Positions 2,644 through 24,029 of a DNA stretch of 49,440 nucleotides are shown in pieces (position 1 is the stretch's first letter; the number at the start of each line of letters is the position of its first letter). Origin of the DNA: a virus. Where the stretch lies: IMG/VR virus record IMGVR_UViG_3300010371_000044, positions 1-49,440 of that record, one strand, 5' to 3'. The notes below the pieces were generated by a model, which had not been told where the DNA came from, ran no database searches, and was given only the letters and a program-made list of their open reading frames with translations. A program made the translations under genes and the position numbers.

Positions 2644-3075
2644 ATGGATACGAAAGAGAAAGCAGCAAAGAAGATGCTCGCCGACATTCGCAAGACGGTG
2701 AAGCGACTCAAGATCAAACTGACGTCGATGGAATTCGTCAGAATCAAATCTCCGCGGCATGCGCCGCAATGCTGCGCGCTGGGAGCGGCGCTGGCGCTGA
2801 AGGCGAAGACCAAGAACGAACTGAAGAAGCTGCTTGGAACAAATTGGCACGAAGGGGACCATGTTGCCTATTGCGCGGACAGACCGGCGTTGGTGGCAAA
2901 GATTCTCAACGGCGCCACTACGGAAGAAGACATGCTCCAGCTTGAAAGCGGTTTTGAGAACTGGCATCTATATGACTGGATTGCCGATAACCGCGGAATA
3001 GAAACCGACGAAAATCACCCGTTCTACAAAATCGGCGCAGCATTGCGCAAGGATGCCGACAAGGCGAAACGATGA
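2644..3075 (+). CDS. hypothetical early protein
   Basis: A 143-residue protein with a strong ribosome site (AAAGGAGACGACC before ATG 2644). The first 60 residues are Lys-rich and helical, followed by a Cys pair and a Trp/Tyr-containing C-terminal half (WHLYDWIADN). It overlaps the start of the nuclease-RecT fusion by ATGA, so it is expressed with the recombination genes. Function unknown. Confidence 0.7.
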   Translation: MDTKEKAAKKMLADIRKTVKRLKIKLTSMEFVRIKSPRHAPQCCALGAALALKAKTKNELKKLLGTNWHEGDHVAYCADRPALVAKILNGATTEEDMLQLESGFENWHLYDWIADNRGIETDENHPFYKIGAALRKDADKAKR

Positions 3076-4664
3076 ACGATAAGCGCGAAGTTCTGTTGGT
3101 GGACCTGTCTGGTCTGCTTCACCCGGCGTGGCGAGTCGCGGAGAACCAACCGATCGGCGTGATTTTTGATGCTACCGTCGGCGGCGTGCATCGGTGCGTG
3201 GCGAAGTTCCCGGGGGCATTGGTCGCGATCTGCCTAGACTCAAAGAAGAACTGGCGCAAAGAACTTGACCCGAACTACAAGTCGAGCCGCGACAAGATGC
3301 CGAATGCGTTCTATGACTGCGCAAGGCGGGTCGAAGAACGACTGACGGCTGATGGGTTTTTGCTTTGGCGCGCTGAAGGCTTCGAGGCTGACGACGTCAT
3401 TGCGACCGCGACGCTTGCGGCAGTGGCGGCCGGACATGATGTTACCGTGTGTTCGACCGACAAAGACCTTGCGGCGCTGCTTCGCACTGGTCCGCCGTCG
3501 GTGCGCCAAATGAAGTTGTCGACGTTCGAATTCGTGACGGCCGAAAGCTTCACAGCGAAGTCTGGTCTGCGGCCCGATCAGGTTGGCGACTTCCTTGCGC
3601 TGACCGGCGACAAGTCGGACGACGTCAAAGGCGTCGAAGGCGTCGGCGCGACGCATGCCGCCGATGCGCTGAAACAGTGGGATAACCTCATCGCTCTCGG
3701 CGCGGCGCTAGAGTCAGATCCCGGTGCCTGCGGGCGAAAGAAGGCAACGAAGAAGGGCGAGGTCGGCGAACCGTTCGAATGGACGAAGGGCATTTTGTCA
3801 TCGTGGGCGCAGCTAGAAAATTCGCGCAAACTGGTGGAATTGCGCTACGATGTTCCGCTCAAGTTCGATGAGATCTATCAGGACAGAGTCGTGCAGAAAC
3901 TCGTGAAAGTGGAGGATGAACCGATGCCGGAAGAATCGATCAGCGCGGGGCCGGGAAATGTCACGAAGGCACAGGAGGTATTCAACGTCGAGGCGAAGAC
4001 GGACCAGACGCCGGACGTGATGCCGACGGTTGGATTGCCGTTTTTGCTGTCCGAGCCGACGGCCACGAAGGCGACAGAGATGCAGACCGGAGATTCGGCG
4101 CTCGCGGGGTTACTGCAAAAGGAATTCGTACCGCGTGAATACGAACTTGCGCTTGAACCGCGCGATCCGAGCGGAGCTGTCAGGCTTTCGCTTCGATTGT
4201 TGAATTCGCGCTTGTTCATGCAGTACGGAAACGAAGATGCGATCCTGGCAGTCATCACACGGGCGCGAGCGATGGGTATCCCAGCCGTGGCGGCGCTGAA
4301 CTGTTTTCATGTAGTCGATGGCCCCGCTGGCAAGATGCTCACGCCATATGCCTATCTCATGGTCCACCTGGCCAGCAAGGATCCCTCGTGTGAGTACATC
4401 CTCCCGGTCGAAGCGTCGCCTACTTCGGCAACGTGGGAGACGAAACACCGCAAGTTTCCGAAGCCTTTTCGGTTGACTTACACGATCGAACAGGCTGAAA
4501 TTGCCGGCTTGAACAAGCCAACCGCCAACGGAAAGCCGTCGAACTGGATGAAAAACCCCGAAGATATGCTGGTGGCGCGTTGCGGGGCGAAGATGTCTCG
4601 GCGTTACTATTCGGGCGCCGTAATGGGATTAGTCGCGTTCGAAGAGATGGGAGGAGACGAGTAA
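3072..4664 (+). CDS. 5'-3' exonuclease (FEN/PIN type) fused to RecT-like annealing protein
   Basis: This 530-residue protein appears to join two recombination activities. Residues about 8-270 look like a FEN-family 5'-3' exonuclease: LLVDLSGLLH, EGFEADDVIA, STDKDLAALL and GDKSDDVKGVEGVG carry the metal-binding acidic residues and the helix-hairpin-helix. After a linker of about 70 residues, residues about 345-528 resemble RecT-type single-strand annealing proteins: RARAMGIPAVAAL, the TPYAYLMVHL segment, AEIAGL, then WMKNPEDMLVARCGAKMSRR and VMGLVAFEEM. A resected 3' strand could be bound by the annealing half of the same chain. SSB is the next gene. RecT partners are usually separate RecE- or YqaJ-type nucleases, so the fusion is notable. 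Confidence 0.82.
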   Translation: MNDKREVLLVDLSGLLHPAWRVAENQPIGVIFDATVGGVHRCVAKFPGALVAICLDSKKNWRKELDPNYKSSRDKMPNAFYDCARRVEERLTADGFLLWRAEGFEADDVIATATLAAVAAGHDVTVCSTDKDLAALLRTGPPSVRQMKLSTFEFVTAESFTAKSGLRPDQVGDFLALTGDKSDDVKGVEGVGATHAADALKQWDNLIALGAALESDPGACGRKKATKKGEVGEPFEWTKGILSSWAQLENSRKLVELRYDVPLKFDEIYQDRVVQKLVKVEDEPMPEESISAGPGNVTKAQEVFNVEAKTDQTPDVMPTVGLPFLLSEPTATKATEMQTGDSALAGLLQKEFVPREYELALEPRDPSGAVRLSLRLLNSRLFMQYGNEDAILAVITRARAMGIPAVAALNCFHVVDGPAGKMLTPYAYLMVHLASKDPSCEYILPVEASPTSATWETKHRKFPKPFRLTYTIEQAEIAGLNKPTANGKPSNWMKNPEDMLVARCGAKMSRRYYSGAVMGLVAFEEMGGDE

Positions 4665-5026
4665 TGGCATTTGAGCAAGGCAGTGGGTTTCGTATTTCAG
4701 GTTCCGTGGTGCGCAAGTACGTCAATCCGCAAGGCACGTTCGGCGCGCTGACCGTCGAGGTATTCGTCGATGGTCGCAAGAAACTTCTCGAGATCCGCGC
4801 GTTCAAAGACACTACCGCGGCGTTCAGCGATCTCGTTCAGGGCGCGTTGGTGACTGTCACGGGATCGGTCGACAGCGAGAAACTGACGTCGAAAGACAAG
4901 TCGCCGGTCGTTATCGACGGGCGCGAGAAGTGGGTCAGCGCTTTGACCGCGCGGAAGATCGTCGTCGCGGAGGTCAGCAAGGCGCCTCCGAAACCAGCGG
5001 CGGCAGACGACGATATTCCTTGGTGA
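4664..5026 (+). CDS. single-stranded DNA-binding protein (OB fold, acidic tip)
   Basis: A 120-residue protein with an N-terminal beta-rich region (FRISGSVVRKYVNPQGTFGA, then LTVEVFV and IRAF) typical of OB folds. Its C-terminal tip is DDDIPW, nearly identical to the DDDIPF tip by which bacterial SSB recruits partner proteins. The start is fixed by TAATG at 4662-4666, with GGAGGAGA just upstream. It directly follows the nuclease-RecT fusion, so the two probably act together in annealing and replication. Confidence 0.85.
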   Translation: MAFEQGSGFRISGSVVRKYVNPQGTFGALTVEVFVDGRKKLLEIRAFKDTTAAFSDLVQGALVTVTGSVDSEKLTSKDKSPVVIDGREKWVSALTARKIVVAEVSKAPPKPAAADDDIPW

Positions 5027-5051
5027 CAGAACGCCGGCATCGGCCGGCTTT

Positions 5052-5118
5052 GCCCCTGATTGGTTCATTGCCTGGAGACGTCCAGGAGATGAGCCGGGTT
5101 CGATTCCCGGCTGGGGCG
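5052..5118 (+). ncRNA. tRNA-like RNA without an anticodon arm
   Basis: A canonical T arm is present: stem CCGGG (5094-5098), loop TTCGATT, stem CCCGG (5106-5110). GCCCCTG (5052-5058) pairs with CTGGGGC (5111-5117) in six of seven positions, as an acceptor stem. Where an anticodon arm should be there is CCTGGA-GACG-TCCAGG (5071-5086), a perfect six-pair stem with a tetraloop, and no D arm can be drawn. So it looks like a tRNA-like domain rather than a decoding tRNA. A decayed tRNA is the main alternative. Confidence 0.5.
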
Positions 5119-5122
5119 CGAT

Positions 5123-5181
5123 GCCTAGAAACAGGTGTGTGGCTAGGCGTAGAACTGCGGCGATTGTGCCGTAAAGCGCAG
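5123..5181 (+). other. structured non-coding stretch with two hairpins
   Basis: GCCTAG (5123-5128) pairs with CTAGGC (5143-5148). CTGCG (5155-5159) pairs with CGCAG (5177-5181), or alternatively CGGC with GCCG inside it. I see no gene here. It bridges the tRNA-like element and the hairpin at 5184, and may form one RNA with them. Confidence 0.4.
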
Positions 5182-5183
5182 CG

Positions 5184-5213
5184 TGCCAGCCGCTGGTTCA
5201 AAGCTGGCATTTT
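5184..5213 (+). terminator. hairpin followed by T tract
   Basis: TGCCAGC and GCTGGCA form a perfect 7-pair stem around a 12-nt loop (CGCTGGTTCAAA), followed by TTTT. It would serve as a modest rho-independent terminator after the SSB gene and tRNA-like RNA. The hairpin at 23906-23935 has the same geometry and a closely similar loop. Confidence 0.45.
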
Positions 5214-5226
5214 CGAGGGTGAGCCC

Positions 5227-5430
5227 ATGAGCAAAGAAGAGAAACCGATGCGTGGCGACTGGATGATGCAGGCGCTTCGCCCGAAGCGATCGCGTGCGAT
5301 GACACTTTGCGGATGTGCGCGATGCTGTCAAGATCGGCCGTACGACAGCGTTCTTGCTGGCGCGCAGTGCGAGAATCGTCGATGCGAATGCAGGAATGGG
5401 ATGCCGCGAGAATTGGACTTCGACCGATGA
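5227..5430 (+). CDS. small Cys-rich hypothetical protein
   Basis: A 67-residue protein starting at ATG 5227 behind GAGGGTGAG. The second half holds seven Cys (CGCARCC, C, CEC), suggesting zinc binding. Its stop overlaps the methyltransferase start (ATGA at 5427). No family recognised. Confidence 0.6.
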   Translation: MSKEEKPMRGDWMMQALRPKRSRAMTLCGCARCCQDRPYDSVLAGAQCENRRCECRNGMPRELDFDR

Positions 5431-6161
5431 GTTACGTGCTGCATTTGGGCGACTGCTTGGACCCGGTTACGGGACTTGCATCGTTGACGGACAAGAGCGT
5501 CGACCACGTCATTACGGATCCGCCGTTTACGCAACGAACGAGCGAGAACATGCGGAGCCGGAAGGATGCCGGCGATGGTGGCGGCTATATCGGAGACAGC
5601 CATCGCCGCCGCATCGACTTCGATGGCATCGACGGCGCAGAGGGACAGATCGTAGCCGAGACCATTAGGGTATCTCGACGTTGGTGCATATGTTTCTGCG
5701 CGCTCGAACAGATCGGCAAATACGAGTCTGCGGCTGGTAAGTCATGGGTTAGAGCCACCGTCTGGCACAGGACGAACAGCGCACCGCAGTTCACCGGAGA
5801 TAGACCGGGACAGTCTTGCGAGGGCATTTCCATCATGCATCGCGCTGGGAGAAAGCGATGGAACTGCGGTGGCCGATGCGCGTTCTACGATGGTCCGACC
5901 ATCAATTCGGTCGGAGACAAGGATCGCGGGATAGATCACCCAACTGTCAAGCCAACCTGGCTGATGGAATCGCTGATACGTGACTTCACCGATCCCGGCG
6001 ACACAATCCTCGACCCTTTCGCCGGCAGCGGCACCACCGGCGTTGCGGCGATTCGACTCGGGCGCAACTTCATCGGCTTCGAAAAGGATCCGAAGTACCA
6101 CGCGATCGCGATGAAGCGGCTCAACGCGGCACGAGAGCAATTGACGATGCCGGGAACGTAA
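5427..6161 (+). CDS. site-specific DNA methyltransferase (N4-cytosine or N6-adenine)
   Basis: A 244-residue S-adenosylmethionine-dependent DNA methyltransferase. The catalytic motif DPPF is at residues 31-34 and the AdoMet-binding motif DPFAGSGTT comes about 170 residues later. This order (catalytic before AdoMet motif) is that of beta-class enzymes. HPTVKP before the AdoMet motif and GFEKDPKYHAIA after it are also typical. The start at 5427 is set by ATGA coupling. No restriction gene is adjacent, so self-protection or regulation of phage DNA is more likely than a complete restriction system. Confidence 0.88.
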   Translation: MSYVLHLGDCLDPVTGLASLTDKSVDHVITDPPFTQRTSENMRSRKDAGDGGGYIGDSHRRRIDFDGIDGAEGQIVAETIRVSRRWCICFCALEQIGKYESAAGKSWVRATVWHRTNSAPQFTGDRPGQSCEGISIMHRAGRKRWNCGGRCAFYDGPTINSVGDKDRGIDHPTVKPTWLMESLIRDFTDPGDTILDPFAGSGTTGVAAIRLGRNFIGFEKDPKYHAIAMKRLNAAREQLTMPGT

Positions 6162-7936
6162 TGACTAACGAAGAACTCCTATCGCATGCGCTCGCGTTGG
6201 GGACGCGTGACTACCAGGCGCGCAAGTGCGTTGACATATTTGACGCATGGAAAGAGCATCGTTCGACAATTGCTGTACTCGCGACGGGGTTAGGCAAGAC
6301 GCATTTGTTTTGTGTGCTGGCTAAGCTTTGGCCAGAATTGGAAGCTTCATTAGGAATTCCAGATCCAACCGGACGCGTATTGATCTTAGCGCATCGTCGC
6401 GAACTGATCATACAAGCATGGCACAAGGTTACCGAGATAACCGGCGAATTGGTTGGCATTGAAAAGGCGCAAGAACGGGCGCTTGGTTCGCGAATCGTCG
6501 TCGGTTCTGTTCAGACACTGAAAGGGAATCGTCTTACCAACTGGATTGGTAAACCACCGACACTGGTAATCATCGACGAGGGTCATCACGCGGCTGCCAA
6601 GTCGTATCGACAAATCATCGCCGCGTTTCCAAACGCCAAGGTTCTACTTGTTACCGCAACTCCCAAGCGTGGCGATGGCGTTGGGTTGCACAATGTCTGC
6701 GAATCAGAGGCTGGCGAACCGCTCGATATGGCGTGGGGGATCGAGAATGGTTGGCTTACCCCGATCCGGTCGATACCGATTCACGCCGAGATCGACATCG
6801 ACAAACTTAAAGTGCATTCGAGCGGGCCGAAGAAAGGCGAAATCGATGAAGCCGAAATGGACGATGCGATCGCTTCGTGCGCCGCCGAGTTGCGCGATGC
6901 CGTCGTGCGGGTATGCGGAGACAAGCGCACCGTCGTATTCGCGCCGGGCGTCAAGACGGCGCACGCCACGGCTCTGGCGCTATGCGAAAAAGAACCCGAG
7001 TCGGCGTTTGCGATCGACGGCAAGACTGAGGACGGCCTACGAGCGCGCATCTTGCGTCGACATCGCGAGGGTGCTTTCCCGCGGCTCTGCAACTGCCAGG
7101 TCCTCACTGAAGGTTACGATGACCCTGAGTTGATCTACGAACTCATCGCCATATTCTGCAAGTCGATTTCTCGCGTGATTCAAATGATGGGCCGCGTGTC
7201 GCGCCTGTGGCCTGGCATCGACAAACTTGCGACAGCCGAAGAACGCAAGTCGGCAATAGCCGCAAGTCCCAAACCCTATGGCATCGTTCTTGACCTTGTC
7301 GGTAATACCAAGCGACACGACTTCGTTTCCCCCCTTGACGTGCTAGGCGGTACAGCAACCGTCGAAGTGCGCAAGCGCGCCAAGAAGAAACTCATCGAGG
7401 TTGGCGGCGACATCGACAAGGCCATCGCGGCAGCAGATGCGGAAATCACCGCCGAAGAGGCAGCCAAGAAGAAAGCGCAAACCGCCAAGGAAAGCGCCGC
7501 TCGCGCCGCCCGCATGCGAGCAAAGTTAACCGTCGAAGAAGCCACCGACCCATTCCGCGCGATGGGCATTCGCAACCCAGAGAAGTCAATTCGCGCCGTG
7601 CGTCCCGACGACATCGCCACATCGTCGATGAAGTGGGTGCTTGAGAATAAGTATGAAATGCCTGCTCCCGATGCGATGACGAAACGCCAGTTCTTCGCGC
7701 TCATCAAGGCTGCTAAGAAACGCGCCGATGCTGGCCTGTGCTCATACAAGACGGTCAAGGGACTAGCGGCGCACGGCATCGACGCCCGCGACATGTCCAA
7801 GGCGACCCGTGACAAGCTCAGAGAAGCGTTTGAAGCAAATGGTAGGGTCATGCCTTCGAAGGATGTGGTTGCAGCGATAGTGAACGTACCGCGAGATTCG
7901 GACAAATTCGCCGCAGAAGGGAAGGCGCCGTTTTGA
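6161..7936 (+). CDS. superfamily 2 DEAD/DEAH-box helicase
   Basis: A 591-residue ATP-dependent helicase. Walker A is ATGLGKT (41-47), with motif Ia near LILAHRREL, motif II DEGH, motif III VTATPKR and motif VI QMMGRVSR. The layout matches phage and UvrB/RecG-like SF2 helicases used at replication forks. The C-terminal 200 residues (Lys/Ala-rich, then SMKWVLENKYEMP) are an extra region of the kind seen in phage helicases. It overlaps the methyltransferase before it by one base and the C5 methyltransferase after it by TTGA. Confidence 0.9.
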   Translation: MTNEELLSHALALGTRDYQARKCVDIFDAWKEHRSTIAVLATGLGKTHLFCVLAKLWPELEASLGIPDPTGRVLILAHRRELIIQAWHKVTEITGELVGIEKAQERALGSRIVVGSVQTLKGNRLTNWIGKPPTLVIIDEGHHAAAKSYRQIIAAFPNAKVLLVTATPKRGDGVGLHNVCESEAGEPLDMAWGIENGWLTPIRSIPIHAEIDIDKLKVHSSGPKKGEIDEAEMDDAIASCAAELRDAVVRVCGDKRTVVFAPGVKTAHATALALCEKEPESAFAIDGKTEDGLRARILRRHREGAFPRLCNCQVLTEGYDDPELIYELIAIFCKSISRVIQMMGRVSRLWPGIDKLATAEERKSAIAASPKPYGIVLDLVGNTKRHDFVSPLDVLGGTATVEVRKRAKKKLIEVGGDIDKAIAAADAEITAEEAAKKKAQTAKESAARAARMRAKLTVEEATDPFRAMGIRNPEKSIRAVRPDDIATSSMKWVLENKYEMPAPDAMTKRQFFALIKAAKKRADAGLCSYKTVKGLAAHGIDARDMSKATRDKLREAFEANGRVMPSKDVVAAIVNVPRDSDKFAAEGKAPF

Positions 7937-8649
7937 AAATTGGCTCCCTATTCAGTGGCATCGGCGGTCTTGAGCTTGGTCTCTGCGCGGCCATCCCGAA
8001 CGCCGAAGTCATGTGGCAAGCCGAGTGCGACCCATATGCGCTCGCGGTACTTGCGCATCATTGGCCATCGGTAAAAAGATACACAGACGTGAGGCAAATT
8101 GATGAAACAGCTGAGCATGTTGACGTTATTTGCGGCGGATTCCCATGTCAACCGCACAGTCTTGCAGGTAAGCGGAAAGGAACCAGCGACGAACGCTGGA
8201 TATGGCCAGAATTTGCGCGCATTATTGAAGCTGTCAAGCCAAGGGTTGTGTTCATTGAAAACGTGCCAGGGCTTAGGACGAGTGGACTGCAAAACGTGTT
8301 GGCCGATCTTACCGAGCTCGGGTTCGATGCGGAATGGGATGTGTTTCGAGCGTCCGAAACGGGTGCCCCGCACATTCGCAAACGCATATTCTTGCTTTCC
8401 TACTCCAACGGCATCTCCGTCTGGAACGAACCGCGGTGGGGCACAGGGAAGGGTGGGCGCTTTTCGCCCATCATTGGGAACAATGGCAACACAAGGCAAA
8501 CTAGGAATCCCTGGGAAATTGAATCCGGCTTTTGTAGAGTGGCTGATGGGATACCAGATCGGTCACACCGCTTGCGACTTCTCGGCAATTCAGTCGTCCC
8601 GCAGCAAGCGGCGTTAGCTTTCCGAGAATTGATGGCGAGGGCATTTTGA
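7933..8649 (+). CDS. C5-cytosine DNA methyltransferase
   Basis: A 238-residue DNA cytosine methyltransferase. Motif I is SLFSGIGGLELGL at residues 5-17, the catalytic motif is GGFPCQPHS with Cys72, ENV follows in motif VI, IRKR in motif VIII, and LLGNSVVPQQAA is the C-terminal motif X-like end. It is short for the family, with a reduced target-recognition region. The TTG start at 7933 overlaps the helicase stop. With the beta-class enzyme upstream the phage carries two distinct DNA modifications, which fits restriction avoidance. Confidence 0.88.
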   Translation: MKIGSLFSGIGGLELGLCAAIPNAEVMWQAECDPYALAVLAHHWPSVKRYTDVRQIDETAEHVDVICGGFPCQPHSLAGKRKGTSDERWIWPEFARIIEAVKPRVVFIENVPGLRTSGLQNVLADLTELGFDAEWDVFRASETGAPHIRKRIFLLSYSNGISVWNEPRWGTGKGGRFSPIIGNNGNTRQTRNPWEIESGFCRVADGIPDRSHRLRLLGNSVVPQQAALAFRELMARAF

Positions 8650-9470
8650 GCGCATACATCCGTGTCCTAGGCGCCCTAGGTTCGCGCGTCAAGCGTAAGC
8701 AGGGCGCCGGTGTTATGGCAAATTGTCCGAGCCATGCCGATGACAAGGTGAGTCTTCACGTCGACAACGCCAACGGCACCGTTCTTTTGAAATGCTTCGC
8801 AGGATGCGAGGCGCAAGCGATCGTCGATGCGCTTGGTCTACGGTTTGGCGATCTGTTCCCTCCCCGTGAGGAACAGTCACGGACCATCGTCGCGACCTAT
8901 CGCTATGTCGACGAAGACGGGAAACTCCTCTATGAAAAGTTGCGCTTCGACCCCAAGGGTTTTACGCAGCGCAAGCCGAACGGGATCGGATGGGACTACA
9001 AACTTAACGGCGTGCGACAAGTTCTCTATCGACTGCCAGAGATCTCTTCGTCTCGGCGGGTCGTGTTCGTCACCGAAGGCGAGAAGGGCGCAGACGCGAT
9101 CGCGGCGCTAGGAATGGTTGCAACGTGCCCAGGTGGCGCCGGGAAGTGGAGGCCAGAATTCAGCGAGATGCTTCGCAATCGGCACGTCATCTTGCTGCCA
9201 GATAACGATCAGCCTGGATTCGATCACTGCGAAAGCGTCTCGCGCGCGCTGCATGATGTCGCAACATCAGTACGTGTCGTCGCATTACCTGGACTGAAAG
9301 ACAAACAAGACGCATTCGACTGGATCGCTGCCGGTGGAACGCGCGCTGATCTCGAAGCACTGGCGAAAGCGACGAAGCCAGACGGTGAACCATTGACGTT
9401 GATCTCGCTCATGCGTAAAATAGAGACACTTCAACGAGAAGTAGAACAACTGAAGGAGAAAGCAAAATGA
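8646..9470 (+). CDS. DNA primase (CHC2 zinc ribbon plus TOPRIM)
   Basis: A 274-residue primase-like protein. The N-terminal zinc ribbon has C27, H30, C50 and C54 (NCPSH, LLKCFAGC). The TOPRIM domain has E144 in VTEGEKGADAI and the DxD-like PDND at 186-188. A C-terminal coiled coil (LQREVEQLKEKAK) may contact the helicase. I see no helicase motor of its own, so it probably pairs with the SF2 helicase two genes upstream. The start is TTG 8646, overlapping the methyltransferase stop, with GAGG six bases upstream. Confidence 0.82.
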   Translation: MSAYIRVLGALGSRVKRKQGAGVMANCPSHADDKVSLHVDNANGTVLLKCFAGCEAQAIVDALGLRFGDLFPPREEQSRTIVATYRYVDEDGKLLYEKLRFDPKGFTQRKPNGIGWDYKLNGVRQVLYRLPEISSSRRVVFVTEGEKGADAIAALGMVATCPGGAGKWRPEFSEMLRNRHVILLPDNDQPGFDHCESVSRALHDVATSVRVVALPGLKDKQDAFDWIAAGGTRADLEALAKATKPDGEPLTLISLMRKIETLQREVEQLKEKAK

Positions 9471-20988: not shown

Positions 20989-21167
20989 GCAACTCCGCAA
21001 TGCTCGCCGAGTTGCGCAGCGAAGCCAAGTCGCTGATGGCGCTGTGGGGCAACGTCGCGATGTTCTGGAGCGTCAACGCCGACGCTGGCACGATCCGCGA
21101 CGTTCGCGACGGGACGCTTTACTGCTACTTGTCGCGCGAATGGTTGAAGCTGGATAAGGACGAATGA
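20985..21167 (+). CDS. small hypothetical protein
   Basis: A 60-residue helical protein starting in an ATGA overlap. A helix (AMLAELRSEAKSLMALWGN) is followed by VRDGTLYCYLSREWL. No family recognised. Confidence 0.6.
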   Translation: MSNSAMLAELRSEAKSLMALWGNVAMFWSVNADAGTIRDVRDGTLYCYLSREWLKLDKDE

Positions 21168-21535
21168 GCAAACAAAAACTGTTCACAATCACCACGGCCG
21201 ACCTACGGGAAGAACGCTATCGAGGTAGCGGCGCGGGCGGTCAGAACCGAAACAAACGCGACACTGGCGTGCGATTCACTCACGAGCCATCGGGAGCCGT
21301 CGGCGAATCGGAGGCACAACGCTCGCAATTACAGAATCGTCAGGAAGCGTTCCGAAAGATGGCTAGTTCACTTCGGTTCATCATGTGGGCCAAGGCACAG
21401 GGGCAGGCGCGCATAGAAGGACATGCGTCACTTGATCGCAAGATTGACGAAATGATGGATGAGCGCCATATCGACATCGAACTTGGCGCTGACTGCCACG
21501 GGCGCGAGCATTTCTGCGACACAAAGGACAAATGA
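21164..21535 (+). CDS. peptide chain release factor-like protein (RF-1 domain, GGQ)
   Basis: A 123-residue protein with the catalytic GGQ of class I release factors in RGSGAGGQNRNKRDTGVRFT (GGQ at 25-27), followed by the SQLQNRQEAF helix typical of the RF-1 domain. No codon-recognition domain is present, as in ArfB-type rescue factors, but the C-terminal tail is not the Lys-rich tail that ArfB uses to probe the empty mRNA channel. It could release stalled peptides on phage messages. Start ATG 21164 is coupled. Confidence 0.78.
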   Translation: MSKQKLFTITTADLREERYRGSGAGGQNRNKRDTGVRFTHEPSGAVGESEAQRSQLQNRQEAFRKMASSLRFIMWAKAQGQARIEGHASLDRKIDEMMDERHIDIELGADCHGREHFCDTKDK

Positions 21536-23795: not shown

Positions 23796-23864
23796 GGGCT
23801 GCGCTTTGGGAAGCATTAGCCCCTTGCACGGGCTGAGTTCGGTGTTCGATTCACCGGCGGTCCA
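23796..23864 (+). tRNA. tRNA-Ala(UGC) with reduced D arm
   Basis: Acceptor GGGCTGC (23796-23802) pairs with GCGGTCC (23857-23863) throughout, with G3-U70, the main identity mark of alanine tRNA, and A73. The anticodon arm is AGCCC-CTTGCAC-GGGCT, giving anticodon TGC at 23825-23827. Variable loop GAGTT and T arm CGGTG-TTCGATT-CACCG follow. The D arm is a shortened GCTT-TGGG-AAGC without the usual two linker bases. The 3' CCA is not encoded. Confidence 0.7.
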
Positions 23865-23873
23865 CGAACTTTC

Positions 23874-23935
23874 GGTCCGCAATCTACGGACCATGATCGG
23901 GCCCGTGACTCCCGGGTGTTCAAAGGAGTCGTTTT
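23874..23935 (+). other. two hairpins between the tRNAs, second terminator-like
   Basis: GGTCCG-CAATCTA-CGGACC (23874-23892) is a perfect 6-pair hairpin. TGACTCC (23906-23912) pairs with GGAGTCG (23925-23931) around a 12-nt loop (CGGGTGTTCAAA), followed by TTTT. Geometry and loop resemble the hairpin at 5184-5213. It may end one transcript or be a processing site before tRNA-Met. No gene is seen here. Confidence 0.5.
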
Positions 23936-24007
23936 GTCGGGTTGGAGAAATGGTATCTCGTTTGGCTCATACCCAAAAGACAGCTGGTTCGACTCCAGCA
24001 CCCGCCA
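23936..24007 (+). tRNA. tRNA-Met(CAU), or Ile2-type
   Basis: A complete cloverleaf. Acceptor GTCGGGT pairs with ACCCGCC in six of seven positions, the D arm is GAGA-AATGGTA-TCTC, and the anticodon arm is TTTGG-CTCATAC-CCAAA with CAT at 23968-23970. Variable AGACA, T arm GCTGG-TTCGACT-CCAGC and A73 complete it. The paired first base argues against an initiator tRNA. CAT could also be tRNA-Ile read after lysidine modification. Confidence 0.88.
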
Positions 24008-24029
24008 CTCACAGATCGCAAATTGCACG

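Follow-up and report, generated by a model that had tools for sequence, protein, structure and literature searches.

One gene of the viral genome described here joins a FEN-type nuclease to a RecT/Red-beta core in a single chain, each half with a predicted activity, and its product is probably a phage exonuclease-plus-annealase recombinase that would resect DNA and then anneal it, the covalent link replacing a docking domain. The DNA analyzed (the window) is a complete virus record of 49,440 bases, and its relevant features are collected in Table 1. On re-reading of the sequence, the coordinates, frame and motifs that an earlier note had assigned to this gene were all correct, and the translation runs intact through all 530 residues with zero interruptions. 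The AlphaFold model, based on a 30-sequence alignment (A2), has a mean pLDDT of 84 and consists of two confident domains flanking a lone disordered stretch, a linker of about 65 residues that is flexible in the model and poorly conserved. A Foldseek search with the single full-chain model returned ExoIX, a plastid exonuclease and the T5 FEN together with Red-beta (7ujl_A).

Table 1. Positions of the fusion gene, its parts and its neighbors in the window.
Feature	Position	Strand	Basis
Gene of unknown function	2644..3075	+	Sequence; no Pfam or PHROG match; stop overlaps fusion start (ATGA)
FEN-RecT fusion gene, 530 aa	3072..4664	+	Single open frame; AlphaFold model
FEN-type 5' nuclease domain with H3TH, residues 1-285	3072..3926	+	PF02739, PF01367; Taq ligands; Foldseek ExoIX/T5 FEN
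Disordered linker, residues 289-352	3936..4127	+	pLDDT <50; dN/dS above that of either domain
RecT/Red-beta annealing core, residues 353-526; lacks the tail that standalone RecTs carry at the C-terminus	4128..4649	+	phrog_4171; PDB profile; Foldseek 7ujl_A
Probable divergent SSB, 120 aa, acidic-aromatic tip DDDIPW	4664..5026	+	Model resembles SSBs; homologue in L037
DNA methyltransferase, SF2 helicase, C5 methyltransferase, primase-like gene	5307..9470	+	Pfam/PHROG families

The FEN fold that had been proposed for the N-terminal half is borne out by PF02739 (residues 9-163, E=1.2e-21) and PF01367 (residues 167-266, E=1.3e-13), both above the Pfam cut-off, and the AlphaFold and Foldseek results agree with it. 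Nine acidic residues (D11, D56, E105, D107, D108, D130, D132, D180 and D183) are invariant in A2, and a profile of A2, aligned to the nuclease domain of Taq (E=2.4e-57), places them on Taq D18, D67, E117, D119, D120, D142, D144, D188 and D191, so the active site is conserved; the arch motif residues Y69, K70 and R73 are likewise invariant. The N-domain of Taq Pol I, E. coli ExoIX and phage T5 D15 thus share with the fusion the fold, the nine Taq acidic ligands, the YKxxR arch and the H3TH, but these enzymes stand alone or head a polymerase, whereas the FEN of the fusion is joined to an annealing domain. Residues 1-285 are predicted to have 5' nuclease activity. Among solved sequences, this half is nearest to the FEN domains of the Taq and M. 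smegmatis Pol I enzymes, and such domains trim flaps during replication.

The C-terminal half matches phrog_4171, annotated as a RecT-like ssDNA annealing protein (residues 331-523, E=8.6e-8), and the C-termini of four of five homologues match RecT phrogs (best 1.6e-25). The match to PF03837 anticipated for this half was found above the cut-off in the homologue L002 (27.6 bits against 24), but it falls below threshold for the window protein; the RecT-like character itself is upheld by the phrog_4171 match and by agreement with Red-beta in both profile and fold. A profile from 43 fused and standalone RecT-core sequences (alignment A3) had Red-beta (7ujl) as its sole match among all PDB chains (E=1.1e-4), pairing W492 with Red-beta W143 and R510 with R161, and W492 is invariant in all 43 sequences. 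Foldseek matched 7ujl_A at 8.3e-5 with a probability of 1.00 and a TMt of 0.65, with about 11% of the structurally aligned residues identical. In Red-beta, W143 is nearly universally conserved and touches the template strand, mutation of R161 correlates with a 1000-fold drop in in vivo annealing efficiency, and residues 1-177 suffice for annealing while residues 178-261 bind lambda exo (PMC9512822). The fusion has the same fold, the W143/R161 motif and the domain extent of Red-beta 1-177, to which it adds an N-terminal nuclease, and residues 353-526 are predicted to anneal strands.

What might have become of the docking part? The fusions stop 0-12 residues past the core, whereas standalone RecT relatives extend 26-213 residues past it (two contig-end fragments left out), with the core limits set by a model built from the fusions and the core ending where the Red-beta 1-177 domain ends. 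When one neighboring gene was tested at each of ten standalone loci, it was an exonuclease in seven (phrog_69, the RecE-like phrog_434 and phrog_298) and a FEN in none. A Gordonia phage RecT recovered as a similarity match has a RecE-like exonuclease one gene away. These exonuclease neighbors suggest that in the fusion the FEN fills that exonuclease's role. Since the tail, which is the exo-docking part in lambda, is absent and the nuclease is on the same chain, the covalent link plausibly substitutes for docking, and we infer that it took over from the C-terminal docking domain. The apparent N-terminal extensions on the standalone RecTs L080, L096 and L104 result from stop-to-stop reading of upstream sequence; the start codon lies just before the core.

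Relatives were gathered by two scans, with the window protein and then with a 14-sequence alignment as query, and separate FEN and RecT profiles were mapped onto every ORF of the relatives' contigs. In at least 39 other IMG/VR viral contigs, FEN and RecT occur in one ORF whose product is about 28-38% identical to the window protein; the count takes in L065, clipped by its contig end inside the RecT part, and L057, clipped at the start. The same domain pair is present in many other viral contigs, and the stop or frameshift between the halves that the earlier note had allowed for is absent from their ORFs as it is from that of the window. Nei-Gojobori dN/dS for six pairs was 0.07-0.40 in the FEN half and 0.03-0.30 in the RecT half, with the linker above both halves in all six; the two halves alike are under purifying selection. 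A chance motif match, or a frameshift joining two genes, is ruled out by the 39 other one-ORF fusions and the low dN/dS. In a tree of 26 fused and 17 standalone RecT cores, the fused cores, all 26 of them, form a single clade (100/99) apart from the standalone ones, as expected from one fusion origin. Among the best 80 matches listed from GTDB contigs, the FEN half alone was matched, mostly in long, Pol I-sized ORFs.

RecT is not the only annealing protein found behind this nuclease. In L198 (IMGVR_UViG_3300037193_003130, positions 1-1782) and L027 (IMGVR_UViG_3300048606_000041, positions 3977-5437), a FEN is fused to a phrog_3290 single-strand annealing protein (8.8e-49 and 3.6e-48, respectively). 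The FEN tree places L198 and the RecT fusion L076 as sisters (100/95) and the linkers of the two are visibly similar, which points to replacement of the annealing domain behind a kept FEN and linker; L027 has an uncertain position on a long branch. Judged from these sequences, the annealase of L198 appears to have been swapped for another, so that the pairing of nuclease with annealase would itself have been preserved, and FEN together with varied annealases may be a workable combination. A query with the phrog_3290 half of L027 returned 80 contigs, in two of which it is fused to a FEN (L198 and the L027 contig, which is also L092, L193 and L194) and in one of which, L195, it lies beside a FEN gene. 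The two separate, adjacent genes of L195 (2920-4540) are a possible unfused counterpart of these fusions. With the whole L027 protein as query, only L027 itself was returned.

The fusion gene overlaps its neighbors on both sides: the stop of the preceding gene overlaps its start in ATGA, and its own stop shares one base with the start codon at 4664 (taATG). These overlaps make it probable that the three genes are co-translated. The earlier note had an SSB ending in DDDIPW directly after the fusion, and of this the tip, the adjacency and an SSB-like model stand, but sequence families lend no support, and one contig alone outside the window yielded a homologue. Sequence searches of Pfam (the SSB model included), PHROG and the PDB gave no significant match for the 4664-5026 product. 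Its model is of modest confidence (mean pLDDT 63) and OB-like, with the order beta-beta-beta-alpha-beta, and Foldseek ranks SSBs, both mitochondrial and bacterial, and PriB as its top matches. The C-terminal tip is an acidic stretch ending in an aromatic residue, the feature tested for as that of a bacterial-type SSB; the E. coli SSB tip ends in Phe, and Trp occupies that place here. The sole homologue found ends in GDDKVDW and is encoded 3' of the fusion in L037, the closest relative (L001 is the same contig); two scans for a wider family by sequence gave nothing beyond it, and across the fusion family the gene is not conserved. On the strength of the model, the product is probably a divergent SSB.

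In the fusion-bearing relatives, the examination took in 2-9 genes around each fusion, and those phages may carry separate exonucleases elsewhere, which would weaken the case for the FEN as their recombination exonuclease. In 13 of the 34 loci compared (for example L051:6631-7032, L060:7286-7741 and L073:6506-7210), the fusion has a member of c1, a family of about 134-195 aa, close by on its 3' side. Proteins of c1 and similar neighbors carry the SSB-like tips DEGQIKW, DDSEIPF and TDEIPF, and neither of the two tested matches PHROG. Further downstream in the window, the helicase gene is flanked by methyltransferases, of the N4/N6 type at 5307-6161 and the C5 type at 7933-8649, and in L039 a methyltransferase and then a helicase follow 3' of the fusion in the same order as in the window.

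How might the two halves act together? In the resect-and-anneal mechanism that we consider probable, the FEN domain would act at a nick or an end of the DNA and strip the 5' strand, the exposed 3' single strand would cross the flexible linker to the RecT/Red-beta core, and the core would pair it with a complementary strand, the SSB-like product of the next, overlapping gene probably shielding the single strand meanwhile. FEN enzymes often favor flaps or nicks over blunt ends, which counts against resection, and the low confidence of the SSB model and the lack of conservation of its gene in the family also weaken the mechanism. It is supported by the gene content of the window, among whose predicted ORFs neither a DNA polymerase nor a second recombination exonuclease or annealing protein was found in the families listed, and by the T5 exonuclease, itself of the FEN fold, which produces 3' overhangs on linear DNA and is used in cloning (PMC6974442). 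The kinship of the FEN half with flap-trimming Pol I domains and the position of the fusion gene upstream of helicase and primase-like genes would also suit an enzyme working at the replication fork, where, at a lagging-strand gap, the core would first anneal a strand and the FEN would then cut the 5' flap of the fragment thus displaced, or RNA primers. This is an unlikely reading, though one that deserves to be kept in view: the standalone relatives partner resecting exonucleases and not FENs, and no phage DNA polymerase was found with which the FEN could cooperate. It is similarly doubtful that the FEN-annealase fusions constitute a distinct phage recombinase class with an exchangeable annealase, defined by annealing at replication-fork gaps and 5' flap trimming in one molecule and not by lambda Red-like end resection; if they do, the replacement of RecT by phrog_3290 in L198 relative to L076 would record selection acting on which annealase is used.

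The long, poorly conserved linker could also be taken to mean that a replication FEN and an annealing protein were fused by chance and never share one DNA substrate. Retention of the single chain across a deep, divergent clade, and the joining of FEN to a different annealing protein as well, make this improbable. That the full-length copies all come from metagenomic contigs, with none found in an isolate phage record, might raise the suspicion of an artifact, whether frameshift, chimeric assembly or decayed gene, but 39 other contigs with the same architecture, low dN/dS in both halves and retention of all catalytic residues leave it scarcely credible.

The resect-and-anneal reading places the fusion beside lambda Red (lambda exo and Red-beta) and RecE with RecT (EATR/SynExo), which likewise combine a 5'-3' exonuclease with a RecT/Red-beta core, resection and annealing being predicted for the fusion. 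Those systems comprise two chains against the one of the fusion, their nuclease is lambda exo or RecE and not a FEN, and their annealase has a docking domain that the fusion lacks. We have accordingly filed the fusion as working like an EATR system, and not as a canonical member, because it lacks the C-terminal tail and consists of one chain. This is also reminiscent of phage T7, in which the FEN-family exonuclease gp6 cooperates with the annealing protein gp2.5 in recombination, although the two are separate proteins and gp2.5, an ssDNA-binding protein with an OB fold, is no RecT. How an exonuclease loads the nascent single strand onto its annealase, and how the stoichiometries of the two are matched, are standing questions for lambda Red and RecET, and a natural covalent 1:1 fusion without a docking domain makes them directly testable. 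As a single gene, the fusion may also offer a starting point for recombineering in laboratory bacteria.

The suggestion that such a protein is possibly undescribed holds within the sources searched. No description of a FEN-RecT fusion was found in the literature searched. The single full-length match in the viral structure library, A0A6J5MUB0 from an uncultured Caudovirales phage (462 aa), matches the whole model over 528 alignment columns at 29% identity, and this protein, the one UniProt viral homologue found, is named for the nuclease half alone, as a 'PIN_53EXO domain containing protein'. Queries from three subgroups against 50,697 phage records, and one query against 72,556 plasmid records, gave no full-length match. 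Elsewhere in the window, a short gene at 21164-21532 is the probable source of a match to the RF-1 release-factor domain (PF00472, 1.2e-18), and two neighboring tRNA genes, Ala (tgc) and Met (cat), lie at 23796-24008.
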